DNA from: Thermococcus celer Vu 13 = JCM 8558 | Lineage (GTDB): Archaea; Methanobacteriota_B; Thermococci; Thermococcales; Thermococcaceae | DNA: 64,000 bases | Assembly (NCBI RefSeq): GCF_002214365.1 | Contig: NZ_CP014854.1 | Location: forward strand, 1,364,001-1,428,000 | Direction: 5' to 3' | In this document: in pieces, positions 25,413 to 38,875 of the stretch | How the letters are laid out: each line of letters begins with the position of its first letter | Numbering within the stretch: the stretch's first letter is position 1 | Position numbers and translations under genes: made by a program | The notes under the pieces: generated by a model | The model's input: the letters and a program-made list of their open reading frames with translations, nothing else | The model's database searches: none | What the model was told of the DNA's origin: nothing

Positions 25413-25940
25413 TCAGAACTCGACGCCCCTCCTCGCGAGGATCCCGCGCCCGTAGGGGTGCTTCACCTCCCTCATCTCGGTTACGTAGTCCGCTAACTCG
25501 AACAGCCCCTCCGGGCAGTACCTCCCCGTCAGGACGAGCTCCGTGTGGGGGGCCCTGTTCTTTATCATCTCCTCAACCTCCCCAACGTCGAGCATCCCGA
25601 AGCCGAGGGCGACGCAGAGCTCGTCGAGGATCACCAGGTCCCACTCACCGCTTGAGACGACCTCCTTGGCCCGCTGGAGGGCCTTTTGAGCCGCCTCTAT
25701 GTCGTCTGGTTCCGGCTTTCCGTGGACGAACTTGGGCAGGCCGAAGGACTCTATACGAGCTCCGCATTCCTCTATCTTCCTCTGCTCTCCGTAAACCCTT
25801 GGGGCCTTCATGAACTGGATTATCATGACCTTCCCGTCCGAGCCGAGCATCCTGACGGCCAGGCCGAGGGCGGCGGTCGTCTTCCCCTTCCCGTTTCCCG
25901 TGTAGATGTGAACGAGACCGAGTTTTTCCTTCCACGACAT
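25413..25940 (-). CDS. cobO: Corrinoid adenosyltransferase (CobO/BtuR type)
   Basis: This enzyme adds the 5'-deoxyadenosyl group of ATP to reduced corrinoids in cobalamin synthesis or salvage. The P-loop is GNGKGKTT (about residues 15-22), followed by VMIIQFMK and the Walker-B-like LVILDEL. The C-terminal LTGRYCPEGLFELAD matches BtuR/CobO. The 175-residue length is right for the family. The frame extends upstream to 26018, but GGTGAAATCG before the ATG at 25940 sets the start. It stands alone, as is common in Thermococcales that salvage corrinoids. Confidence 0.88.
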   Translation of the reverse strand: MSWKEKLGLVHIYTGNGKGKTTAALGLAVRMLGSDGKVMIIQFMKAPRVYGEQRKIEECGARIESFGLPKFVHGKPEPDDIEAAQKALQRAKEVVSSGEWDLVILDELCVALGFGMLDVGEVEEMIKNRAPHTELVLTGRYCPEGLFELADYVTEMREVKHPYGRGILARRGVEF

Positions 25941-26167
25941 CGATTTCACCGGGTGGATATAATCGCCAGGGGTTTTAAGGGTGTTGGATGCTGAACAACC
26001 CGGTAAAGGGGACCCCAACGTTTATAGTGAGAATAGCACATGGTCAACGTTGAGTATTTTGGTCTTCCGGGGAGCTTGATAAGTCAAATCAATTTAACTT
26101 ATTATTTAAGCCAACTTAATCGAAACTTTTTTAAGCTGGTGGGTGTAGTAACATGCAGGTGTTTCAC

Positions 26168-28018
26168 ATGGCGAGGTCCAAGTCCAAACCCAAGAACGGT
26201 GCCGACGAGTGGGCGATTCTCGAAAAGCTCCAGCCCTGGGTCGTGAGGAGGTACTTCCTGATAAAGGAGCACTTCAGGGATAGGGAATTCACCCCCGAGG
26301 ACGTTGAAAAGCTCTTCGAGATGAAAAGGAAAGAACTCCAGGAGAAAACCGGTAAAGACGAGCCGGAGTTCACGACCAAGAACGTCGGCGAAGTTCTCTC
26401 GATCCTGAGAAAGGCCGGACTGCTAAGGGCCAGGAAGGACGTTTACGATTTCAGGAAGACCTATTACAGCCTCACCTTCCCGGGCGAGACGAAGGTAACC
26501 CGCGACAGGCTGATATCCCTCCTCAAGGCGGCGGCGGACCAGATAAGGGGAGGCCTCGACTACAAGGCACTGCTCGTTTTCCTCTTCTACAAGGCCATAA
26601 GCGACCGCTGGATGAAGAGGGCCCAGAACCTGATCAAGGAGGGGAAACCGCAGATTCAGGCTTACCTCCTGACGAACAAGGGTTACTACAGGCTCTTCGA
26701 TGAGGAGAGCGGGAGGCTCTACACCTGGCACGAGGTCGTCAAGAGCAGGGAGAGCATCAAGGAGCTGGCGAACGCCCTGATAAAGATCTCCGAAATGAAC
26801 GAGGAGCTCTCCGATCTGAAGAAGCTCGTCGAGGTTCTCGGTCTTATCGGCTTCATCAAGGAGGACAACCTCCACAAGCTCGAGGAGATCGTTAGGATAT
26901 TCAACCGCGTCGATTTCGCCGAGTTCGACAGCGACATCCTCGGCGACGCGTACGAGTGGATCCTCTCCTACTTCGCCCCCCAGAAGGCCAAGGAGGGGGA
27001 GGTTTACACGCCGAGGGAGGTCATAAGGCTCCTCGTCGAGCTCCTCGACATCGAGGATGAGAGCGACGTCCTCGACCCGGCGAGCGGCTCCGGTGGAATG
27101 CTGATCGAGGCCTACCGCTACGTCAGGGAGAAGGTGAAGAAGGAGGATCCCGGAGCAGAGCCCGCGATAATGCTCTACGGTCAGGAGATAAACGAGACCA
27201 CCGCGGCGCTCTCGAAGCTCAACCTCATCCTCCACGGCATCCAGGAGTTCGAGATATTCGAGGGTGCCGACAGCCTCGTTAACCCGCGGTGGGAGGAAGA
27301 ACTCAGGAGGAACGGCGTCGAGGACGGGAAGGCCGATTACGTCATCGCGAACCCGCCGTGGAACCAGGACGGCTACGACGAGGCGAGGCTGAGCGACAGA
27401 AGGATAAAGCACATCTACAGGTACGGTTACACGTCGAAACAGTCGGCGGACTGGGCGTGGGTTCAGCTGATGCTCCACTACGCGAGGAGGAAGGTCGGGG
27501 TCGTGCTCGACAGCGGGGCCCTCTTCAGGGGTGGGGCCGAGAAGGCCATAAGGCAGGGAATAGTTGAGGACGACCTCATCGAGGCGGTGGTTCTGCTCCC
27601 CGAGAAGCTCTTCTACAACACCGGCGCGCCGGGGATAATCATGGTGCTCAACCCCAACAAGCCCGGGGAGAGGAGGGGGAAGGTGATCTTCATCAACGCA
27701 TCGAGGGAGTTCAGGAGGCACCCGGACGTCAGGAGGCTTAACCAGCTGGCCCCCGAGCACATCGAGAAGATAGTGACGGCCTTCAGAGGGTTCAGGGAGG
27801 TGGATGGCTTCTCGAGGGTCGTGGGGCTCGACGAGATACGGAAGAACGATTACAACCTGAACGTCTCGCTGTACGTCTTTCCGGAGGAGGAGGGAGAGCA
27901 CATCGACCTGAGGAAGGAGTTCGAGGAGTTCAGGAAGGTCGAGGAGAGGGAGAGGGAGCTGGTCGGGAAGGCGAAGGTCTACATCGAGGGCATAATAAGG
28001 GTGATGGGCGATGAGTGA
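26168..28018 (+). CDS. hsdM: Type I restriction-modification DNA methyltransferase subunit (HsdM)
   Basis: HsdM methylates adenine N6 in the sequence chosen by HsdS. After an unusual N-terminal domain of about 110 residues, probably a winged helix, comes a helical HsdM N-domain. The catalytic fold follows, with SAM motif DPASGSGGML (about residues 303-312) and the catalytic NPPW (about 395). Length 616 exceeds the common ~500 because of the N-terminal addition. AGGTG lies 7 bases before ATG 26168; ATG 26153 is an alternative. It overlaps hsdS by 8 bases. AT-rich promoter DNA lies at about 26090-26115. It marks the left edge of the defence island. Confidence 0.92.
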   Translation: MARSKSKPKNGADEWAILEKLQPWVVRRYFLIKEHFRDREFTPEDVEKLFEMKRKELQEKTGKDEPEFTTKNVGEVLSILRKAGLLRARKDVYDFRKTYYSLTFPGETKVTRDRLISLLKAAADQIRGGLDYKALLVFLFYKAISDRWMKRAQNLIKEGKPQIQAYLLTNKGYYRLFDEESGRLYTWHEVVKSRESIKELANALIKISEMNEELSDLKKLVEVLGLIGFIKEDNLHKLEEIVRIFNRVDFAEFDSDILGDAYEWILSYFAPQKAKEGEVYTPREVIRLLVELLDIEDESDVLDPASGSGGMLIEAYRYVREKVKKEDPGAEPAIMLYGQEINETTAALSKLNLILHGIQEFEIFEGADSLVNPRWEEELRRNGVEDGKADYVIANPPWNQDGYDEARLSDRRIKHIYRYGYTSKQSADWAWVQLMLHYARRKVGVVLDSGALFRGGAEKAIRQGIVEDDLIEAVVLLPEKLFYNTGAPGIIMVLNPNKPGERRGKVIFINASREFRRHPDVRRLNQLAPEHIEKIVTAFRGFREVDGFSRVVGLDEIRKNDYNLNVSLYVFPEEEGEHIDLRKEFEEFRKVEERERELVGKAKVYIEGIIRVMGDE

Positions 28019-29288
28019 GCTCGAGTTCTACAGGGAGACGAGGTTTAAGGACACCGAGATCGGGAGAGTTCCGGAGGATTGGGAGGTTGTTGAGCTTGGA
28101 GAGGTATGCAAGAAAATAACAGATGGTACTCATAAAACACCTAAATATGTCGATAAGGGGATTCCATTTATTTCTACGCAAAATATCGTACCATTCAGGC
28201 CAGGTTTTGATTTTTCCCAATATAAAAAGTATATTTCCTTGGAAGAGCATAGAGAACTAATAAAGAGATGTAAACCCGAGAAGGGAGATATTTTAATTTC
28301 GAAGTGTGGTACTATCGGTAGAACTAAATTAATTGATGTAGATTACGAATTTAGTATTTTTGTAGGTCTTGCATTATTAAAATTAAAAAAAGACCGTGTC
28401 TCAGGAGAGTTCCTTGAGCAGCTTTTAAATTTTGAACCGTATATTAGAAGAATGGAAATAGCGTCCCCAGGTGCAACAAGAAAGACTTTAACTATCAATG
28501 CGATTAAGAAATTCAAAATCTCCCTTCCTCCTCTCCCCGAACAGCAGAAGATCGCCGAGATCCTCCGCTCCATCGACGAGGCGATTGGAGCGGTTGAGGA
28601 TAGCATTACAAAGCTCGAACGTCTCAGGAAGGGCGCGATGGAGCACCTGCTCACGAGGGGGGTAAACCACACCCGGTTTAAGGAGGTTGAGCTGAACGGG
28701 CGGAGGGTGAAGATCCCGGCGGAGTGGGAGGTTGTTGAGCTCGGAAAAAAAGAATATTTTGAGGTAGTTATGGGGCAGTCTCCACCTTCCTCTACATATA
28801 ACCAAAAGGGCGAAGGATTGCCTTTTTTACAGGGAAGTGCAGAGTTTGGAAGGTTATATCCAACGCCGCTTTTATATACCACCCAGCCAAAGAAGATAGC
28901 CAACAAAAATGACATACTAATATCGGTCAGAGCACCCGTGGGGGATGTGAATATTGCACCATTCAAGCTTTGTATCGGAAGGGGGCTAGCTGCGATTAGG
29001 CCAAATCTAAGAAAAATTGACTATATGTACCTATTTTATTACTTAGCATTCGCAAAGCCGATAATGGAGAAGCTTGGGGGTGGATCCACATTTAAGGGCA
29101 TAACTAAAAAAGCCCTTCAGAATTTTGAAATCCCGCTCCCACCGCTCCCCGAACAGCAGAAGATCGCCGAGATCCTCCGCTCCATCGACGAGGCCATCGA
29201 GGCCAAGCGCATGAAGAAGGCGGGGCTCGAGCGCATGAAGAAGGCGGTCATGGAGAAGCTCCTGACGGGGGAGGTCAGAGTCCGATGA
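28011..29288 (+). CDS. hsdS: Type I restriction-modification specificity subunit (HsdS)
   Basis: HsdS gives the M2S methylase and R2M2S endonuclease their DNA sequence specificity. The plan is the classical duplication: TRD1 (about residues 20-165), conserved helix 1 with LPEQQKIAEILRSIDEAI, TRD2 (about 240-375), conserved helix 2 with the same motif, and a short end. The conserved parts are GC-rich and almost identical between halves. The two recognition domains are strikingly AT-rich and differ from each other, as expected if they were exchanged by recombination. The recognition sequence should be bipartite but cannot be predicted here. Confidence 0.92.
   Translation: MSELEFYRETRFKDTEIGRVPEDWEVVELGEVCKKITDGTHKTPKYVDKGIPFISTQNIVPFRPGFDFSQYKKYISLEEHRELIKRCKPEKGDILISKCGTIGRTKLIDVDYEFSIFVGLALLKLKKDRVSGEFLEQLLNFEPYIRRMEIASPGATRKTLTINAIKKFKISLPPLPEQQKIAEILRSIDEAIGAVEDSITKLERLRKGAMEHLLTRGVNHTRFKEVELNGRRVKIPAEWEVVELGKKEYFEVVMGQSPPSSTYNQKGEGLPFLQGSAEFGRLYPTPLLYTTQPKKIANKNDILISVRAPVGDVNIAPFKLCIGRGLAAIRPNLRKIDYMYLFYYLAFAKPIMEKLGGGSTFKGITKKALQNFEIPLPPLPEQQKIAEILRSIDEAIEAKRMKKAGLERMKKAVMEKLLTGEVRVR
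28533..28582 (+). repeat. 50-bp exact repeat in hsdS, copy 1
   Basis: These 50 bases encode the LPEQQKIAEILRSIDEA core of the first conserved helix and are identical to 29145-29194. Identity at every third codon position shows recent gene conversion or duplication rather than only protein-level constraint. Confidence 0.85.
29145..29194 (+). repeat. 50-bp exact repeat in hsdS, copy 2
   Basis: This is the second copy of the 50-bp repeat, in the second conserved helix of hsdS, in direct orientation 612 bases from copy 1. Recombination between the copies would delete or swap the second recognition domain. Confidence 0.85.
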
Positions 29289-29327
29289 GGTTTTAAACCC
29301 TCGCCCTTTTTCCCGGGGGTTAAGCAA

Positions 29328-29930
29328 ATGACGGTAACCCAAGCTTTTGTGGACGAGAGCGGTGACCTCGGAGGCAGTAAGAGCAAAAAGAGGTACTTTA
29401 CACTCGCCGCCGTGCTCTGCAATGAGAATGCAATTGAAACCCGGATACGGAGGATATCCCAAACGTTCGCTCTTCCCGAACTTAAGTTCAGTGATCTATC
29501 GTACGATGAAAAAGTTGGGGCCACAGAATTGCTCTCTTCACTGGAATTCAGTGTCGCGTACGTTGTTCTTTCAAAGAACGACGGAGGTTTACAGGTATGG
29601 CTGGACAAGAGCAAGCACAACAAGAGTTTGGCGGCCATAAAGCTTTATGGAGCTTTAGTTTCGGGTTTACGTCCCTATCTACCCCGGATGGCCATTGTGG
29701 TGGACAGGAATCAATATTCTGGGCCGGTCTCTAAGTCACTTGTAAAGAAGTATTCAGTCAATGTTATTCCAGATGATTCGCAGAAACGGGCTGGCCTCCA
29801 GCTTGCGGATGCAATGGCCAACATCGTTTACCTCCACTATCAACATAAAAACGGGGAGCTAATTGGAATGATACGGGATAAAATTATCTTTGAGAGACTA
29901 ATCAACGAGAAGAGTCTTAGAAAGTTGTAA
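29328..29930 (+). CDS. DUF3800 protein in the restriction locus
   Basis: A 200-residue protein with the DUF3800 pattern: FVDESGDLG at the N-terminus, VVDRNQ in the middle and the C-terminal DSQKRAGLQLADAMAN. The conserved Asp residues at both ends fit the proposed RNase H-like nuclease fold of this family. It sits 39 bases after hsdS and before hsdR. DUF3800 genes are frequent in defence islands and beside type I and mobile-element loci. A role as an accessory nuclease is plausible but unproven. GGGGG lies before the ATG, and codon use is a little more AT-rich than in hsdM. Confidence 0.8.
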   Translation: MTVTQAFVDESGDLGGSKSKKRYFTLAAVLCNENAIETRIRRISQTFALPELKFSDLSYDEKVGATELLSSLEFSVAYVVLSKNDGGLQVWLDKSKHNKSLAAIKLYGALVSGLRPYLPRMAIVVDRNQYSGPVSKSLVKKYSVNVIPDDSQKRAGLQLADAMANIVYLHYQHKNGELIGMIRDKIIFERLINEKSLRKL

Positions 29931-29992
29931 CGAGTCGGGTGGCTAGTCCCCTTCCGGGCGACCCCCACCCTCATTTCTCTATTATAAATTTA

Positions 29993-30066
29993 AAGTTTAA
30001 ACTTATTAACCTTTCGGTGTCTCAAAAACTCAAACGTTTTTATAAAATCGTTCGGAATTTTGAGAC
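29993..30066 (+). promoter_or_regulatory. hsdR promoter region with two palindromic elements
   Basis: The 206 bases between the DUF3800 gene and hsdR are AT-rich. AAGTTTAAACTT (29993-30004) is a perfect 12-bp palindrome. GTCTCAAAA (30019-30027) and TTTTGAGAC (30058-30066) form a perfect 9-bp inverted repeat around a TATA-like TTTTTATAAAA (about 30037-30047). hsdR therefore has its own, probably regulated, promoter. Separate control would allow methylation to precede restriction. Confidence 0.5.
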
Positions 30067-30136
30067 TTTCCAGTCCCCGCGTTTTAATTAAGTTTATTAA
30101 TTACGCCGGTGACCATTAGGGGTAGGGGTGAGATGT

Positions 30137-33100
30137 ATGGCGCTGATACCCGAGGGGGTCGTTCACGGTGAGATTAAGGATAACCTCCTCCGCATCGGAT
30201 GGGAGGACGGCAACGAGAGGTTCAACATAGAGGAGCATAAGATGGTCTCCGATTACAGCGGGCTTGAGGGTTCCCTCGGCGGTTTCGTTCTCTGGAACAT
30301 CCTTGAGGGTAAGATCCGGGAGCTTAACGGCTCCTTCTTCGCCAACCTGACGGAGGAGGAAGAGGAGAAGGTCTGGGAGGAGATAAGGAGAAAGCTCGAA
30401 TCCGCGGGGGAGGTTGAGACCCTCGAGTACCTCAAGTACGGCCTTTCCCTCACCTCCCTCGGGAGGTACGACAGGGTTAAGCTCATCGATTATGATAATC
30501 CTACTAATAACATCTTTTTCTTCCTCCACGAGGCGAAGTTTCCGGGCTCTCCGGACAACATAAAGCCCGACTTCACCCTCTTCATCAACGGGGTTCCTGT
30601 CGTTATAATCGAGGCCAAGGCCAGGGGGATAATCGAGCTTGAGGACGTTGACTGGAGGAGGTGGTCGAAGGTTCAGGGCACAGAGGAGGAGGCCCTCGCC
30701 CAGATACGGAGGTACGAGAGGTACTCAAAGCCCCTCTTCCGCTTCGTCCAGTTCGGGGTCGCCTACGGGGACAAACAGCTTTACACCCCTACGATGCCTT
30801 CCGGCGGAAGCGCCCCCGCCTTCGAGTGGAGGTACCCCGACGAGGAGAAACCCGACGTCTTCGATCTCCTCAAACCCGAGCGGCTCCTCGACGTGCTGAG
30901 GTACTACACCTTCTTCTTCAGGAGGAACGGGAGGGGCGCAAAGAGGATCAAGGTCATCGCGCGCTGGAACCAGTACAGGGCAACGAAGAGGATCATCGGG
31001 AGGATCGAGGAGTACCTCTCGATGGAGGGTGAGAAGAGGAACGGCCTCGTGTGGCAGTGGCAGGGAAGCGGAAAGACCTTCATAATGTTCTTCGTGGCAA
31101 ACTGGTTCCTCAACAGGTACAAGGGCAGAAACCCGGTTACCTTCTTCGTCGTTGACAGGACGGACCTCAAGACCCAGCACTCGGGCGTTTTTGAGTCCGT
31201 CGAGGACAGGGAATTCAGGGAGCACTTCGACGTCGTAAAGAACATCTCCGAGCTGAGGAAGCGCATCGAGGAGATGATGAAGAGCGAGGAAACCGGAAGG
31301 GTCATCCCCACCGGGATCCACATAACCACGATTCAGAAGTTCCAGTACGGAAAGTTCAGGGACCTCGTGAGGGTGAAGAAGTCCAGGGACGGTGAAAAGT
31401 TCGAGGCGGAGAGGGCTGTTAAAAAACCTGAGGTTCTTTTCCTGATCGACGAGGCCCACCGCACCCAGTACGGTCGGCTCGCCTCCGTGATGAGGGCCCT
31501 TTTCCCGCGGGCGATGTTCTTCGGCTTCACAGGGACGCCGATATTCCAGAGGAGCAGGAACACGTTCCAGGAGTTCGCCTATCCCGAGGATGGGGAGTAC
31601 TTCCTCGACGTTTACTTCATAAGTGATTCAATTAGGGATGGCTTCACCCTCGATATAACCCACGAGGTCGTTGAGGAAGAAAGTGTCTCAATCGCCCTCG
31701 ACGAGAACAAGCTCAAGGCCTTTATCGAGGCCTACCAGCTAAACGACCCGGAGGAAGTCGAGGCATTTCTCATGGGGCGGAGAAAGAGCCTGAAGATGAG
31801 CTCGAGGGAACTCGCAGAGGAGCTCAGGAAGTCGAGGGTATTCCTCGAGAGCCCGAAGGAAATCGAGCGCTTCGCGGAGTACATCGCCAAACGGATTTAC
31901 GACGACACGATGGGGTTCCAGTTCAAGGCGATGGTCGTTGCAGTAAACCGGGAGGCCTGCGTTCACTTCAAGCGGGCCCTTGATAAAGCGTTTAGGGAGT
32001 ACTTCTGCTCTAAAGTCGAGGAACTCGAGGACGGGGGCAAAGTTGAGGTCGCCGAGCACTTCCGGGAGCTCTGCCGGAACGCCGAAAGGCTTTCCGAGGT
32101 TGTGATGACCTACCAGCACAACGAGAAGAGCGAGGTCATCGAGGAGTTCAAAGCACAGCTGAAGTCGAGAAGGGAGTTCCAGAAAAAGGATTACGACACC
32201 ATCAACAAACTCATCGTGGAGATGTTCCAGGAGGAGGCTTACCCCAAGGTACTTATCGTCACCGACATGCTTCTCACGGGTTTCGACGCCCCGATCCTGA
32301 GGGTGATGTACCTTTACAAGCCGATATTTGGGCACAGACTCCTCCAGGCCGTGACGAGGGTTAACAGACCCTACCCGAACAAGGAGACCGGGCTCGTCGT
32401 TGATGGCGTCGGCCTTCTGCCGGCCGTTATCAGGGTGAAAGGTATCTACGAGATGCTGGCTAAGCAGGATCCCAAGGTGCTCGAGGACTTCCGGAGAAAC
32501 TTCGCGAAGAGCATCGGGGAGAGGGTGAAGGAGTTCGAGGATAAACTCCAGCGGGTTAAGGAAGAGCTTTCCGGAGTTGGGATAGAGGTTGACATCATCA
32601 AGGCCTTCAGAAAGCAGGGGAGATGGAAGGAGCTCGAGGCGGAGATGGATCGGGTTAAGAACGTGCTCGCACCGATTGCTCTCTACTTTAAGGGCAACGA
32701 GCCGAGGGCGGTGAAGCTTTTCAACAACCTCCGCGAGGTCGTTTCTATGTACCGTTCCCTCGGGGCGCATCCTGCGAGGCTGGCCTACATGGACGACATG
32801 ATGGCCGTTGGGGCCGTTTACTCCGCATTCGTTAGACTGATCGGCTTCACCGGAAAGGAGAGCAAGTTCTGGGACGACCTGCTTCGCTTCGTGCACGAGA
32901 ACATGGAAGTCGGCCCGATGAGGGAGCTCGTCAGGGTGAGGCTCGGCGAACTCTCGGGGAGCGAAGCGTCTTTCGAGACGGTCGCACGCTTTTACAGGCT
33001 GTACTATCAAGCGGAGGACAACGCCCACGATCCGGTTTACAGGGCGATCCTTGAGAGGCTCAACCGTCTCCTTGAGCAGTGGCTCAACAGGAACATAGAC

Positions 33101-33448
33101 CTCAAGGAACTCAAAAGGCAGGTTTCCCTACTCGAAAAGCAGGCCGATGAATACGAGAAGAAGAAAGCGGGCAGGACGTGGCAGGAGTCGCTCGTCGAGT
33201 CGGTTAAGTTCTACGCGGTGAATTACCTGGGCCTCGGGGGTGTTGAACTCCGGAGGTTCAAAAAAGAGCTCAGAAGGCTCAAAAAATTGAACCCAAAAGC
33301 CGTTAAGAGGCTCTCAATGGCACTTTTAGCTGACATTATGGACGTCATGAGCGCTGAAAACCTGGAGAAGTATCGTGAGCTTTCAAAGGAGGTCGACAGG
33401 CTCGTGGAGGAGTCGATTATCCCGGAGGTGCGCAGACATGTTAGATGA
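30137..33448 (+). CDS. hsdR: Type I restriction endonuclease subunit (HsdR)
   Basis: HsdR is the ATP-driven translocase and nuclease of the type I complex. The N-terminal nuclease has KPDFTLF and IIEAKA (about residues 142-160), the D...E-x-K site. Superfamily 2 helicase motor motifs follow: Walker A WQGSGKTF (about 305), LIDEAHRTQYG (about 436), FTGTP (about 462) and TDMLLTGFDAP in the second RecA fold. A helical C-terminal domain binds HsdM. Length 1103 is normal and intact. The frame opens at GTG 30128, but GGGGTGA sits 5-6 bases before ATG 30137. Its last codons overlap the next gene, making it the head of a five-gene run. Confidence 0.95.
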   Translation: MALIPEGVVHGEIKDNLLRIGWEDGNERFNIEEHKMVSDYSGLEGSLGGFVLWNILEGKIRELNGSFFANLTEEEEEKVWEEIRRKLESAGEVETLEYLKYGLSLTSLGRYDRVKLIDYDNPTNNIFFFLHEAKFPGSPDNIKPDFTLFINGVPVVIIEAKARGIIELEDVDWRRWSKVQGTEEEALAQIRRYERYSKPLFRFVQFGVAYGDKQLYTPTMPSGGSAPAFEWRYPDEEKPDVFDLLKPERLLDVLRYYTFFFRRNGRGAKRIKVIARWNQYRATKRIIGRIEEYLSMEGEKRNGLVWQWQGSGKTFIMFFVANWFLNRYKGRNPVTFFVVDRTDLKTQHSGVFESVEDREFREHFDVVKNISELRKRIEEMMKSEETGRVIPTGIHITTIQKFQYGKFRDLVRVKKSRDGEKFEAERAVKKPEVLFLIDEAHRTQYGRLASVMRALFPRAMFFGFTGTPIFQRSRNTFQEFAYPEDGEYFLDVYFISDSIRDGFTLDITHEVVEEESVSIALDENKLKAFIEAYQLNDPEEVEAFLMGRRKSLKMSSRELAEELRKSRVFLESPKEIERFAEYIAKRIYDDTMGFQFKAMVVAVNREACVHFKRALDKAFREYFCSKVEELEDGGKVEVAEHFRELCRNAERLSEVVMTYQHNEKSEVIEEFKAQLKSRREFQKKDYDTINKLIVEMFQEEAYPKVLIVTDMLLTGFDAPILRVMYLYKPIFGHRLLQAVTRVNRPYPNKETGLVVDGVGLLPAVIRVKGIYEMLAKQDPKVLEDFRRNFAKSIGERVKEFEDKLQRVKEELSGVGIEVDIIKAFRKQGRWKELEAEMDRVKNVLAPIALYFKGNEPRAVKLFNNLREVVSMYRSLGAHPARLAYMDDMMAVGAVYSAFVRLIGFTGKESKFWDDLLRFVHENMEVGPMRELVRVRLGELSGSEASFETVARFYRLYYQAEDNAHDPVYRAILERLNRLLEQWLNRNIDLKELKRQVSLLEKQADEYEKKKAGRTWQESLVESVKFYAVNYLGLGGVELRRFKKELRRLKKLNPKAVKRLSMALLADIMDVMSAENLEKYRELSKEVDRLVEESIIPEVRRHVR

Positions 33449-34102: not shown

Positions 34103-34534
34103 ATGAGGTACTGGCTCTGCATAACCAACCGCGACAACTGGAAAGTTATAAAAGAGAAGAACGTCTGGGGCGTGCCGAAGAGGCACAGGAACACCATCGC
34201 CAGGGTAAAGCCCGGCGACAGACTCATCATCTACGTCAAACAGGAGAGGAAGGATAAGCAAATCCTCGAGCCGAAGATCGTTGGAATCTTCGAGGTCGTG
34301 GGCGAGCCCTACACCGACTCCACGAAGATCTTCAAGAGCCCGCCGCACCTCAACGAGACCTATCCACTGAGGGTGAGGATAAAGCCCGTAAAGCTCGGCG
34401 AGCTCGAGTTTAAGCCTTTGATTCCAAAGCTCAGCTTCATCACCAACAAGAAGCGCTGGAGCGGGCATCTGATGGGCAAGGCGATGAGGGAGATACCCGA
34501 GGAGGACTACAGGCTGATCGAGGGCCTGCTTTGA
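34103..34534 (+). CDS. EVE-domain protein (modified-base reader)
   Basis: A 143-residue single EVE (PUA-like) domain: [15 protein letters not shown] at the start, then [19 protein letters not shown] and the C-terminal [17 protein letters not shown] domains resemble PUA and YTH folds and are thought to bind modified bases, and they are often linked with restriction and other defence genes. Being last in the hsdR operon suggests that it senses modified DNA or tRNA in the restriction response. The start is set by GGTGAT just before ATG 34103. The neighbouring methyltransferase cassette begins after it. Confidence 0.85.
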
Positions 34535-34572
34535 TTTTATCCGTTCCCCTTCTTTGATCTGAGCACATCCCG

Positions 34573-34613
34573 CCACCGAAGTGAAGGCCCCATCACCGGT
34601 GAAGGGGCATCAC
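34573..34613. repeat. 41-bp hairpin repeat, copy A
   Basis: This 41-bp sequence, CCACCGAAGTGAAGGCCCCA and on, is identical to 37919-37959. It folds on itself: AAGTGA pairs with TCACTT just outside, CCCC with GGGG, and the centre TCACCGGTGA is palindromic. An additional inverted pair TCTTTGAT (34551) and ATCAAAGA (34645) encloses copy A. It lies between the EVE stop and the methyltransferase promoter. It could be a mobile REP-like element, a recombination site or a terminator. Confidence 0.8.
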
Positions 34614-34710
34614 CCATCACTTCGAACACCCCGTTCACCACAGAATCAAAGAGGGGGCTAGATGAAAGTTATAAGAAACTTAAGCAAACTATAGCAATGG
34701 AGGAACAAAT

Positions 34711-35667
34711 ATGAGGGAAGTTCCGTTTGAGGAGTACCTTGAATTCATAAAAGAGCACGATCATGTAATTATCGGAAACCAAAAGATAGAGATTGGAAGG
34801 CCCATTCTGATTAAAACTTTCCAACCGCAGAATTTCAAGCTCGAAACCACAACCGTATGGAGCTTTCCAGACCGGGGGAAATGGGCAACTCATCATGCAA
34901 ACGCAAAATACAGGGGAAACTGGGCGCCTCAGGTTCCACGAAACTTGATCCTGCAGTATACAAAACCGGGAGATACCGTTTTGGATGCGTTTCTTGGAAG
35001 CGGGACAACGCTGATAGAATGCAAACTGCTTGGAAGGCACGGGATCGGGGTCGATATAAACTATGAGGCCCTAATGGTGGCGTGGGACAGGTTAAACTTT
35101 GAGTACGACCCGCGTAAAGAGGCGCAACCCACGCTAAGCTCTTATCTTGGAATGAAGGAGAACGTTGAATGGGTGGAGCCCCAAATTCGCCTTTACCATG
35201 GAGATGCAAGAAACTTGGACGAACTTGAAGATGAGAGCATAGATCTGATAGCCACTCACCCGCCCTACGCTGGAATTATCGGATATACAAAAAAAGCGGG
35301 CTCTCCGGTTGACGGAGATCTATCAAATGTTAAGTCAATTAATGACTTCGTATTGGAAATGAAAAAAGCCGCTGAAGAATTTTATAGAGTATTAAAACCC
35401 GGAAAATACGCGGCTATTCTAATGGGGGACACAAGGCGGCACCGGCATTATGTGCCCATAGCGTTTAGGGTCATGAAAGCGTTTTTGGAAGCGGGGTTTA
35501 TACTAAAAGAGGACATCATAAAGGTCCAGCATCATATGCGGGGAACTGAACCGTGGAAAACCAGAAAGAGGGACTTCTATCTAATCTCCCATGAGCATCT
35601 ATTCGTATTCAGAAAGCCGGAGAAAGGAGAGAGGCTCCAAAAATTCCAGGAAAGTAGGGTAGTCTAA
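34711..35667 (+). CDS. Site-specific DNA methyltransferase (amino-MTase, N4-C or N6-A)
   Basis: A 318-residue SAM-dependent DNA methyltransferase. LDAFLGSGTTLIE (about residues 90-102) is the FxGxG SAM motif, and THPPYAGIIGY (about 181-191) is the (D/N/S)PPY catalytic motif in slightly varied form. The motif order, SAM site first, and the N-terminal WSFPDRGKWATHH resemble the N4-cytosine/N6-adenine enzymes seen in archaeal R-M loci. It is AT-richer than hsdR. GGAGG lies 8 bases before the ATG and a TATA-like GTTATAAG is at about 34668. It converges on the candidate endonuclease gene with only 5 bases between. Confidence 0.82.
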   Translation: MREVPFEEYLEFIKEHDHVIIGNQKIEIGRPILIKTFQPQNFKLETTTVWSFPDRGKWATHHANAKYRGNWAPQVPRNLILQYTKPGDTVLDAFLGSGTTLIECKLLGRHGIGVDINYEALMVAWDRLNFEYDPRKEAQPTLSSYLGMKENVEWVEPQIRLYHGDARNLDELEDESIDLIATHPPYAGIIGYTKKAGSPVDGDLSNVKSINDFVLEMKKAAEEFYRVLKPGKYAAILMGDTRRHRHYVPIAFRVMKAFLEAGFILKEDIIKVQHHMRGTEPWKTRKRDFYLISHEHLFVFRKPEKGERLQKFQESRVV

Positions 35668-35672
35668 CCCTT

Positions 35673-36290
35673 TCAAAGCTCAAAAAGGGAAACACCGTAT
35701 TTTTCGGGTGCTGGCCTATTTCGAACGGCTGTTGTTATTATCCTGTCAATATCACCATATTCACTCTGTGCGATCCATCGTATAAACCTCATGAGGAACT
35801 CCCTCGGTGGGTCAAGTTTGCTCTCTTTGCATCCTCTGTCGCTATAATTCCAGTCCTGCTCGGCCATTAGCAGTGAGCCATAGAAAATCGTTATATCAGA
35901 GGGATCGAGTTCCATAGGAAATGTTATGCCTTTTATATCTTCTACAACTTTATTTATGTCCTCGCCATGATTGATGCGTTCAAATGCCAGAAATATAGAG
36001 TTTGCCTGCTCTTCGTCGCTTATCCGCTTGAGATACAGATCAAAGAACAACCGGACGTGCGTCGGAGCAAATTCCTTCTTTCCTTCCGGTTGAAGAACGA
36101 CCTTGAAATCTCCTGGACATATCCTGTCCGTTCTGACGATGTAAACTTTGGTTCCGTTAGACCCGGAGTAGAGCAGAGCCCGTCCTCCTTCTCCGAGAAC
36201 CCTGCGCCCTCTTTTGGTCTCCTTTATCTCTGCAGGTCTCAGGTCCTGAACTATTTCAAAAACGTCGTCTACCCTCACGAACGTCACCAA
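35673..36290 (-). CDS. Unknown protein in methyltransferase cassette, candidate restriction endonuclease
   Basis: I do not recognise the family. The protein is about 205 residues, soluble and charged. Its start is unsettled: TTG 36290, or GTG 36278 with GGTGA just upstream. Notable segments are EIKETKRGRRVLGEGGRALL near the N-terminus and KLDPPREFLMRFIRW near the C-terminus; no certain PD-(D/E)XK or HNH site is visible. It lies 24 bases downstream of the Dam-like gene on the same strand and faces the second methyltransferase. This is where a type II endonuclease gene would be expected. A control protein or damage-linked factor are alternatives. Confidence 0.55.
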   Translation of the reverse strand: MVTFVRVDDVFEIVQDLRPAEIKETKRGRRVLGEGGRALLYSGSNGTKVYIVRTDRICPGDFKVVLQPEGKKEFAPTHVRLFFDLYLKRISDEEQANSIFLAFERINHGEDINKVVEDIKGITFPMELDPSDITIFYGSLLMAEQDWNYSDRGCKESKLDPPREFLMRFIRWIAQSEYGDIDRIITTAVRNRPAPEKYGVSLFEL

Positions 36291-36314
36291 GTGTTAAAAA
36301 GAAGACAGAACTTT

Positions 36315-37265
36315 TTAAATAGATCGTTCTACAACGGTTAAATACTCAACAAGAGATCTGGAAGTCACCGAAGTCCTTGATCCACCGTTTTTAACGAGGA
36401 GCTTTGCCCTTTCTCTGCCTACCCTCAATTCCTGAGGGACGTTTGTAACGAGCATTTCGGGAACTTCCCCCCTGCGATCGGCTTTTGAGTTTATTGGCCT
36501 CTTTGCGTAGATTTTGAGTATCTCAAGTCCATCTATTCCCTCATACAGCTCACGAACGGGCTTTACATAGGAGTTGCTCAAAATAAAGTAAACTCCTCTC
36601 TCATGAAGTTCAAGGCAAACATCCCTAAGGCGTTTCTGATCTTCTTTGCTGAAATCTTCCTTCGAATAGCTGGTAAAACTGGCCGTCTCTGAAACTGGGT
36701 GATACGGGGGATCAAAATAAACCAAATCTCCGGGCCCGGCGGCTCTCAGGATGTAAGTGAAGTCTTCGTTGTAAATGTCCAGTTTCTTTAAGACTCCACT
36801 GGCTTTTCTTAGTCTCTCCTCATCCACTATCCTGGGGTTCTTGTATTTACCAAACGGAACGTTGAACTCGCCATTTCTATTCTCGCGGTATAACCCATTG
36901 AAGGCGGTTTTGTTTAAGTACAAAAGCAGGCTTGCGAGCCTGATGTTCGGAATCTTAAACCCCGTTCTAACTATCTCGTTGAATTCCGCACGGGCCTTAT
37001 AGAAGTACTCCTTCTCATTTTTGTGCTCCTCTGCATCTTCAATTAGTTCGTCAACGTGATCCCTAACAACGACGTAGAAGTTTACGAGCTTGGGATTTAT
37101 GTCGTTTATAGTCCCCTTATCCGGTTCCATCCAGAAAGTAACCGCGCCACCCCCAAAAAACGGCTCGTGGAACGTCCTACTTTTAAAGTCCTTTGGCATT
37201 AACGCAACTATCTCATGAAGGATCTGCCTTTTCCCTCCAGCCCATTTAAGGATAGGTTCCGCCAT
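36315..37265 (-). CDS. Dam-like DNA adenine methylase (D12 class)
   Basis: A 316-residue N6-adenine methyltransferase. KWAGGKRQI at the N-terminus, HEPFFGGGAVTFW (SAM site, about residues 33-45) and YFDPPYHPVS (about 180-189) are the D12/Dam class motifs in the right order. The C-terminal ~60 residues beyond the usual end (SKADRRGEVPEM onward) may be specific to this enzyme. The target is probably a short palindrome such as the one used by the associated endonuclease, but it cannot be read. GGAGG lies 6-7 bases before the ATG. A 25-bp-spaced direct repeat flanks its TATA box. Confidence 0.88.
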   Translation of the reverse strand: MAEPILKWAGGKRQILHEIVALMPKDFKSRTFHEPFFGGGAVTFWMEPDKGTINDINPKLVNFYVVVRDHVDELIEDAEEHKNEKEYFYKARAEFNEIVRTGFKIPNIRLASLLLYLNKTAFNGLYRENRNGEFNVPFGKYKNPRIVDEERLRKASGVLKKLDIYNEDFTYILRAAGPGDLVYFDPPYHPVSETASFTSYSKEDFSKEDQKRLRDVCLELHERGVYFILSNSYVKPVRELYEGIDGLEILKIYAKRPINSKADRRGEVPEMLVTNVPQELRVGRERAKLLVKNGGSRTSVTSRSLVEYLTVVERSI

Positions 37266-37326
37266 CGATTGCCTCCTCCCAGCTGTTATTTAGATTACTC
37301 CCTAATAAGACATTCGATAAGATTAC

Positions 37327-37358
37327 GTGCAACACAAATATAAAATTTTTGGTGCAAC
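37327..37358 (-). promoter_or_regulatory. Dam-cassette promoter with direct repeat flanking TATA
   Basis: GTGCAAC occurs at 37327-37333 and again at 37352-37358, 25 bases apart in the same orientation. The AT-rich AAATATAAAATTTTT between them holds the likely TATA box for the Dam-like gene. Such paired sites suit a dimer-of-dimers ribbon-helix-helix repressor, which is what the adjacent upstream gene appears to encode. Confidence 0.5.
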
Positions 37359-37365
37359 ATAATAT

Positions 37366-37815
37366 TCATAATTTGTACTCAAGACCCAGCCTTTTCCTAA
37401 TGTAGTTTGATATGTCCAATCCTTCCCTCTGTGCCTGTTTGGAAACAATCTCATACTCCTCTTCGGTAACGCGTATGGACAACCATTTATTTCGCTTGTA
37501 GTTATAGCCCAACTCTCTGGCTTCAATTTTCCATATTTCTTTGAGAGCCCTGGCTTTTTTCTTAAGTAGTCTTGTGTTATTTAACCCTGAAAATTCTCTA
37601 ACAAGAATTTTCTCGAAATCAGAAGCTACCTGAGAATCACCTTTAGAATACTTGGAGAACTCCCTTAGGGCCAGATCAACAACTGTGGTGACGTTCAAAA
37701 TTTCATTGGATTCCAAAATAGCCTCAAACGCTCTAATTCCCGCAATAGGAATTTTAAGTTTACGAGTGGCAGGAGCTTGTATTTCCATGAGCCTATTTAT
37801 CACTCGCTCGAACAT
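37366..37815 (-). CDS. Ribbon-helix-helix-like putative regulator
   Basis: A 149-residue protein. The last ~45 residues (KWLSIRVTEEEYEIVSKQAQ and on to ISNYIRKRL) look like a ribbon-helix-helix DNA-binding domain of the CopG/MobC sort: a strand followed by two helices. The N-terminal two thirds are helical and unrecognised. It could be the regulator of the cassette or a relaxosome-type protein from a mobile element. The frame opens at a GTG, but GGTGG before ATG 37815 decides the start. A TATA-like TTTAAAT lies about 40 bases upstream. It is upstream of the Dam-like gene with a separate promoter between them. Confidence 0.6.
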   Translation of the reverse strand: MFERVINRLMEIQAPATRKLKIPIAGIRAFEAILESNEILNVTTVVDLALREFSKYSKGDSQVASDFEKILVREFSGLNNTRLLKKKARALKEIWKIEARELGYNYKRNKWLSIRVTEEEYEIVSKQAQREGLDISNYIRKRLGLEYKL

Positions 37816-37918
37816 GGATTCCACCAAATACAGCGTGATACTAAGGGAATTTAAAGGTTAACATCAACTAGAAAAGTGGGTAAGTTGGTGAAAGCTTCAA
37901 TTCAAACAGATGCCTCGA

Positions 37919-37959
37919 CCACCGAAGTGAAGGCCCCATCACCGGTGAAGGGGCATCAC
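37919..37959. repeat. 41-bp hairpin repeat, copy B
   Basis: Identical in sequence and orientation to 34573-34613. Here it lies between the ribbon-helix-helix gene and tRNA-His, with GATGCC and GGCATC as an extra outer inverted pair. The two copies enclose exactly the AT-rich methyltransferase cassette of about 3.3 kb. Confidence 0.8.
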
Positions 37960-38019: not shown

Positions 38020-38097
38020 TGGGGCCAGGGCCGGGATTTGAACCCGGGCTAGGGGATCCACAGTCCCCTGTGCTAACCAGGCTACACCACCCTGGCC
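38020..38097 (-). tRNA. tRNA-His (GTG anticodon)
   Basis: The reverse complement folds as a full cloverleaf. The 7-bp acceptor stem is GCCAGGG with CCCTGGC. An extra G at position -1 is encoded opposite C73, the identity element of tRNA-His. The D arm contains GGTTAGC. The anticodon stem AGGGG/CCCCT closes the loop CTGTGGA with anticodon GTG at 38059-38061, and the T arm has GGTTCAAATCC. CCA is encoded. No intron is seen. A TATA box lies 27 bases upstream. Defence and mobile DNA lies immediately 3' of it. Confidence 0.95.
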
Positions 38098-38236: not shown

Positions 38237-38875
38237 ATGAAAGCGAAGCGCGAAGCCCTTCACAGTCTCTTCACCGCCATGAGGGAAGACAAAGTTGACG
38301 GCGACATAATCGGCCTCCTACTGCTCATCAACTCGATTAAAGGCGTCTATACGACCAGCTCGTGCTCCGGAAGGATAGGGATCATCGAGGAGCCGGCCCT
38401 GGGAGCGAAGCCACTGAGCAGGTGGCTCGTAAAGGTGCACAGGCCGATCGAGTTCGGGGAAGCGAGGGAGTCCCTAAGGAAGGCGGAGAGGGGCCTGATA
38501 TTCCTCAAGAGCCAGCCACCCATCTTTCACGTCGTCGCAGAGGACCTGCAAAAAGCCAAAATGCTCCACGAACTCGGTCTCGCCAGCGGCTTCAAGTACA
38601 CGACCTTCAAGGTCATCTCCAACCGCTACCTCGTCGAGATAAACGCCACGGAGTACCTCACCGTCCCCCTCGGAAGGGACGGGGAGATCCTCGTGAGTGA
38701 GGATTACCTCCGCTTCGCCATCGACGTGGGCAACTCCATGCTGAAGCGCTCGAAAGGAAGACTATCACGTCTCGAGGAGAACTTCAGGAGACTGAGGGAA
38801 GAGCTCGGCGAGGACGAGCTGTTCCACGAGATGGTGGAGAAGTTTGAAATAGGGAAAAATTGGAGGTTACCTTAG
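38237..38875 (+). CDS. taw3: Wyosine tRNA-Phe methyltransferase Taw3
   Basis: Taw3 methylates N4 of the wyosine precursor at position 37 of tRNA-Phe. VYTTSSCSGRIGI near the N-terminus (about residues 37-49) is the TYW3 signature. FHVVAEDLQKAKMLH and GFKYTTFKV follow as in the family. The 212-residue length is normal for archaeal Taw3. The ribosome site is weak (GGTCCGG), and a TATA-like CAATAAAATGG at about 38208 suggests a short leader. The 3' end overlaps the convergent ligase gene by 4 bases. Confidence 0.9.
   Translation: MKAKREALHSLFTAMREDKVDGDIIGLLLLINSIKGVYTTSSCSGRIGIIEEPALGAKPLSRWLVKVHRPIEFGEARESLRKAERGLIFLKSQPPIFHVVAEDLQKAKMLHELGLASGFKYTTFKVISNRYLVEINATEYLTVPLGRDGEILVSEDYLRFAIDVGNSMLKRSKGRLSRLEENFRRLREELGEDELFHEMVEKFEIGKNWRLP

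Follow-up and report, generated by a model that had tools for sequence, protein, structure and literature searches.

What accounts for two identical palindromic repeats on either side of a group of DNA methyltransferase genes, and are they the ends by which those genes move? The question is raised by a locus of Thermococcus celer Vu 13 = JCM 8558, lying in a 64,000-nucleotide stretch of the genome (contig NZ_CP014854.1, positions 1,364,001 to 1,428,000; hereafter the window, whose numbering is used throughout). An initial annotation had proposed that the methyltransferase cassette between an EVE-domain gene and tRNA-His moved as a unit, or that it can be lost or exchanged through the repeats that bound it. 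Comparison with other Thermococcaceae genomes (denoted G001 and so forth; loci, L) upheld the first part of that interpretation, mobility as a unit, but not the second, in which the repeats are the general ends of movement. The explanation that we favour, as probable rather than secure, is that the repeats are duplicated copies of an orphan control palindrome in a defence-gene hotspot, and that the cassette entered beside a palindrome, with duplication or conversion occurring during entry.

The repeats form a direct, exact 41-bp pair on the forward strand, at 34573..34613 (copy A) and 37919..37959 (copy B), just as had been annotated. A 41-mer is expected to be repeated by chance in 64 kb about 4e-16 times, and a search of the genome (1,866,819 bp, up to three mismatches) returned these two copies, the remaining matches being the same two sites on the opposite strand, and the repeat therefore lacks the genome-wide distribution that would have counted against the initial annotation. 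Both copies are rich in palindrome, with the centre TCACC|GGTGA, and both could form hairpins. Copy A lies 39 nt 3' of the EVE gene (34106..34534, + strand) and copy B, in agreement with the annotation, 60 nt past the 3' end of tRNA-His (38020..38096, - strand). Compared with copy B, copy A has a 7-bp tandem insertion (CATCACC|CATCACTT), and counting this insertion the homology gains two bases. The full palindrome at copy B, AAGTGA...TCACTT, reaches 37961, and around copy A there is a larger imperfect inverted repeat (34546..34657; arms 34546-34561 and 34641-34657), the score of whose arms was matched by 2 of 2000 shuffles. Dispersed palindromes of the repetitive extragenic palindrome or bacterial interspersed mosaic element type do not describe the repeats, of which there are two copies here and about one per genome in relatives. 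A known non-coding RNA was also considered and rejected, as Rfam holds no family matching the repeats and its sole match in the region is tRNA-His.

DNA searches revealed related palindromes in G089, G046, G051 and G016, and a model built from six copies, those of T. celer included (R1), found further sites. A second model made from sequences of other genomes only (R2) placed both T. celer copies in the family, with 47.1 bits for copy B (genome-wide E-value 6.0e-8) and 43.5 bits for copy A (4.9e-7); these values are not fully independent, because the members of R2 were gathered with R1. The family comprises 35 strong sites distributed over 29 of the 94 genomes, mostly one in each, and the sites are mainly at gene starts. 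The best conserved of them adjoin a TATA box and are placed either where an archaeal ATPase gene (PF01637) starts or some 35 nt ahead of AbiEi; the ATPase gene that starts at a palindrome in G046 is followed by a RAMA-domain gene, and AbiEi by AbiEii. The palindrome is present at the start of every one of the ten ATPase orthologs that reach 70% identity (nine strong, that of G086 weak), and TATA lies leftward at 19 of the 35 sites and rightward at four. We infer that the family is promoter- or operator-like for the ATPase and AbiE operons. In bacteria, AbiEi represses its own promoter through inverted repeats (PMC7319586). The palindrome by the AbiEi/AbiEii promoters of related genomes resembles that type IV toxin-antitoxin system in being an inverted-repeat element, but it is a 37-bp palindrome adjoining TATA, and in T. 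celer it stands by itself, twice, with no AbiE detected.

Searches of the T. celer genome gave no match to the palindrome-linked ATPase at an E-value of 1e-20 or to an AbiEi query at 1e-5, a result that covers close relatives and leaves room for more distant paralogs below these cut-offs, and neither gene lies next to copy A or B. With no close ATPase or AbiEi in the genome, both copies appear to be orphan palindromes. Other orphans lie 3' of EVE in G051, G017 and G066, and in G021 and G032 the palindrome is found at the stop codon of LplA. G024 and G007 have promoter relics, in which the apparent 5' sequence of the ATPase gene is kept and the gene is gone. The two palindrome patterns that were searched for on viral contigs were not found there. 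A separate observation concerns G046, where a defence island (L091, C179) surrounds two palindromes; these are separated by 280 bp, within which lies what appears to be a truncated AbiEi start. The genes of the island include EVE, an Eco57I-like methylase apparently split into two open reading frames, TIR-like and PIN genes, the ATPase, RAMA and a SNF2-PLD helicase.

The family is concentrated in one part of the chromosome, with 29 of the 35 sites no more than 25 kb from EVE or TYW3, against an expectation of about 5%, and 14 within 2.5 kb. The conserved frame there is aldolase, cobA, a variable stretch, tRNA-His, TYW3 and LplA, and the interval from cobA to tRNA-His is a Thermococcaceae defence-gene hotspot in which orphan palindromes cluster. 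In the window this interval measures 12 kb and contains a type I restriction system, EVE, copy A, the cassette, copy B and tRNA-His. Its left border is a CobA-like ATP-binding (adenosyltransferase-like) gene (25413..26018, - strand), named by motif recognition rather than by Pfam, and beyond tRNA-His, its right border, lies the conserved anchor neighbour TYW3 (38237..38875, + strand). As in other defence islands and tRNA-adjacent hotspots, variable defence genes occupy a fixed interval that is flanked by conserved genes and adjoins a tRNA gene; the differences are that the cassette has no integrase and that the recurring landmark is a palindrome. At the cassette, nothing like an att copy of the tRNA 3' end was noticed. 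The clustering near EVE and TYW3 is difficult to reconcile with a further explanation, in which the repeats, following EVE and tRNA-His, are transcription terminators or a small two-copy repeat with no particular role, the cassette lying between them by coincidence. Hairpin-capable sequences shortly 3' of a gene would suit that explanation, but family members are mainly at gene starts, A and B are identical despite the divergence of the family and no Rfam family matches, and we regard it as highly improbable.

Cassette-free relatives show the hotspot with one palindrome. In the empty form of G016, cobA and tRNA-His adjoin, about 0.3 kb apart, with a single palindrome between them, and G066 has EVE, a single palindrome and tRNA-His. 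The empty site with one repeat that mobility had been expected to leave is therefore found in kind, with one diverged palindrome in each genome, but not in a strain of the same species; the copies differ from those of T. celer, and the sites are taken to be orthologous on the strength of their position. None of the cassette-free relatives scanned carries both copies.

The gene content of the cassette was also as annotated, comprising two methyltransferases, a 205-residue protein without a Pfam family and a ribbon-helix-helix (RHH) protein, with no transposase or integrase in 34573-37959. The first gene, M1, encodes an N6/N4 DNA methyltransferase (PF01555; 34711..35667, + strand) with the motif order FxGxG then HPPY and its own TATA-like promoter at about 34668. 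Convergent with it is R205 (35673..36290, - strand), followed by a Dam-family D12 methyltransferase (36315..37265, - strand) and by the RHH gene, whose product has a NikA-like C-terminal domain and is a candidate regulator of the module (37366..37827, - strand). The interval is AT-richer than its right flank, with about 39-48% GC against 55-60%, while the EVE side is also just 45-50%. The order and orientation of the four genes are the same in at least nine other genomes among those fetched (G013, G019, G028, G037, G047, G067, G001, G079 and G054, the last with the module divided over contig ends), and M1 and R205 converge in every one, although the neighbours differ between genomes. M1 and Dam are 83% identical to those of G001, a member of another genus, and TYW3 is 68% identical, which fits horizontal transfer. 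To judge from these comparisons, the four genes constitute a restriction-modification module that has spread horizontally and occupies several loci in other Thermococcaceae. A search for cassette DNA in phages found none.

The limits of the module do not coincide with the repeats. Comparison of the sequences upstream of M1 and RHH across 11-12 loci gave an extent common to other genomes of 34660..37863 (right limit perhaps 37893), and homology ends 26-55 bp inside the repeats. A palindrome pair was found around none of the other module loci scanned, two of which have one palindrome near an end: the order in G047 is cobA, palindrome, module, EVE fragment and tRNA-His, and in G037 the palindrome lies between cobA and the M1 side of the module. 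As the other modules scanned lack a copy on each side, module mobility does not depend on the repeats. Nor does the cassette have the features of a transposon or integrated element, as it has no transposase or integrase of its own and the repeats are absent around the other modules scanned. As to integron-like cassettes with attC sites, what was observed is that no integrase lies within this one. These results bear on the possibility that the palindromes are dedicated recombination sites at which cassettes are excised, integrated and swapped by an enzyme acting in trans, such as a tyrosine integrase, or by homologous recombination, in an archaeal cassette-exchange system. Such a system would account for two identical direct copies around the module, for palindromes near the M1-side end (G047, G037) and past EVE (G051), and for the one-copy empty site of G016, which single-site integration predicts; integrase genes also adjoin palindromes, in G039, G087, G024, G015 and G026 only. 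We nevertheless consider it unlikely, given the unpaired modules, the mismatch between repeats and module ends, the cassette without an integrase, and the operator-like position of the best-conserved palindromes directly beside TATA at the start of one gene.

Copies A and B are 92-98 bp away from the start codons of M1 and RHH, which head two outward transcription units. Potentially, both could be working control sites about 95 bp upstream of these genes, through which a regulator sets the levels of methyltransferase and endonuclease, and the TATA-like CTTTTAAAAG that copy B has upstream on the RHH strand, together with the association of the palindrome with promoters in other genomes, would agree with such a role. 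However, M1 and RHH have their own conserved promoters inside the module, the palindromes being outside them; the pair is missing at other modules; and searches of the genome at the cut-offs given above found neither of the candidate binders, AbiEi and ATPase. In addition, the module bears a different conserved box, GTGCAACA, two of which stand 25 bp apart in an operator-like arrangement upstream of Dam (37327..37359). This pair recurs before Dam in 10 of 11 modules, with a single box in G037, and one box precedes RHH in nine of the 11. The boxes probably form a conserved regulatory element that belongs to the module, for which RHH would be the obvious binding protein. A role for A and B as working control sites is, in our estimation, distinctly unlikely. 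The simple idea that A and B are operators was also considered and set aside, as no common element lies upstream of M1 and RHH in other modules.

In the explanation that we favour, a palindrome that was promoter-proximal in an ATPase-RAMA-AbiE or AbiE operon would stay behind in the hotspot after those genes were lost. A DpnII-like module would then have entered the T. celer lineage between EVE and tRNA-His, alongside a palindrome of this kind, and one palindrome may have become two identical direct copies, through either crossover at that site or conversion involving two copies already present. If the chromosome had the order EVE, palindrome, tRNA-His, crossover at its palindrome would yield EVE, palindrome, module, palindrome, tRNA-His, which is the order observed, and conversion between two resident palindromes would give the same picture. 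Being identical, A and B are consistent with a common copy of recent date, unlike the pair in G046, which differs at about 10 of 45 positions. Several points weigh against this explanation. The proposed duplication is undated, since the comparison included no strain of the same species, and the palindromes of G016 and G066 diverge from those of T. celer, the orthology of their sites resting on position. Moreover, of 21 scanned EVE-tRNA-His loci without the cassette, a single one has a palindrome in the spacer, the R2 E-values for A and B carry the dependence noted above, and AbiEi binding data for the palindrome were not found. The scarcity of palindromes in that spacer also speaks against a general role of the palindrome, as do the lack of a pair at the other scanned modules and the end of homology short of the repeats.

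As a short sequence that can be searched for, the palindrome marks defence-gene turnover in an archaeal family, and the loci described here are concrete empty and filled alleles for studying how a restriction module enters a chromosome without an integrase. Active exchange at palindromes is possible. A wider proposal, that the palindrome is a recombination hub beside cobA, EVE and tRNA-His where Thermococcaceae defence cassettes (ATPase-RAMA-AbiE, HEPN/MNT, PIN and restriction modules) are swapped without a dedicated recombinase in the cassette, seems to us doubtful.

The module itself resembles the DpnII/MboI-type restriction-modification systems (DpnM, DpnA, DpnII) in having a DpnM-like Dam and a second DNA methyltransferase. 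Dam matches PF02086 (E-value 8e-72) and TIGR00571 (above cut-off), and its best match among solved structures is DpnM (2dpm, 3.6e-60), so it appears to resemble D12-class GATC methyltransferases such as DpnM. Sister modules have a true DpnII endonuclease (PF04556) in the slot between Dam and M1 (E-values 1.5e-73 in G036 and 2.1e-69 in G051), and G068 and G075 have an evident DpnII relative there by sequence resemblance. The T. celer module differs in that this slot is filled by R205, of no known family, that the motif order of M1 is unlike that of DpnA (the two align over the FxGxG segment alone, which is N-terminal in M1 and C-terminal in DpnA), and that an RHH gene, and EVE in relatives, accompany the module. 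R205 had no match in Pfam, NCBIfam or PADLOC, and does not fall in the DpnII family by these searches; its AlphaFold model has a mean predicted local distance difference test score of 61, and neither fold comparison against the PDB (no credible match) nor profile search identified a relative. Since R205 fills the DpnII slot of a DpnII-like system, it is a candidate endonuclease, and it points to an unrecognised candidate family of restriction endonucleases that replaces DpnII in otherwise equivalent modules. A survey of archaeal restriction-modification systems notes that such type II endonucleases are difficult to recognise from sequence similarity and that its data under-represent them (PMC10609329). 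No relatives of R205 were found on viral contigs, phages or plasmids.

Three further observations concern R205 and its module. Many modules encode, next to M1 or EVE, a second small protein with weak, partial similarity to R205 (23-31%; L042, 7395-7733; also loci of G013, G047, G067, G075 and G079). In G075 (L047, 5042-12136), genes for a 1600-residue DEAD helicase with PLD and a 458-residue protein are inserted between M1 and Dam, beside the DpnII-like endonuclease. A contig binned as Thermotogota (L089, JAADCS010000103.1) encodes R205 at 69% and Dam at 78%, reflecting either transfer to bacteria or mis-binning, and was left out of the analysis.

EVE often belongs to the module in relatives. 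The gene is intact, and divergent from RHH, in G019, G037 and G051, and EVE fragments lie beside RHH in G013, G028, G047, G054, G067 and G075. An inverted repeat, AACAACC-N-GGTTGTT, is conserved after the EVE stop codon in many relatives (e.g., L037, L057 and L066), and a similar repeat occurs in G046 beside an apparent 5' remnant of AbiEi; EVE may have replaced AbiEi at the AbiEi start codon. The type I restriction system of the hotspot (HsdM, HsdS, a small open reading frame and HsdR; 26153..33448, + strand) was assigned by profile match for HsdR and by position and motif for HsdM and HsdS. Within HsdS, two near-identical direct stretches of about 50 bp (28533-29170) are probably the conserved repeats between target-recognition domains.

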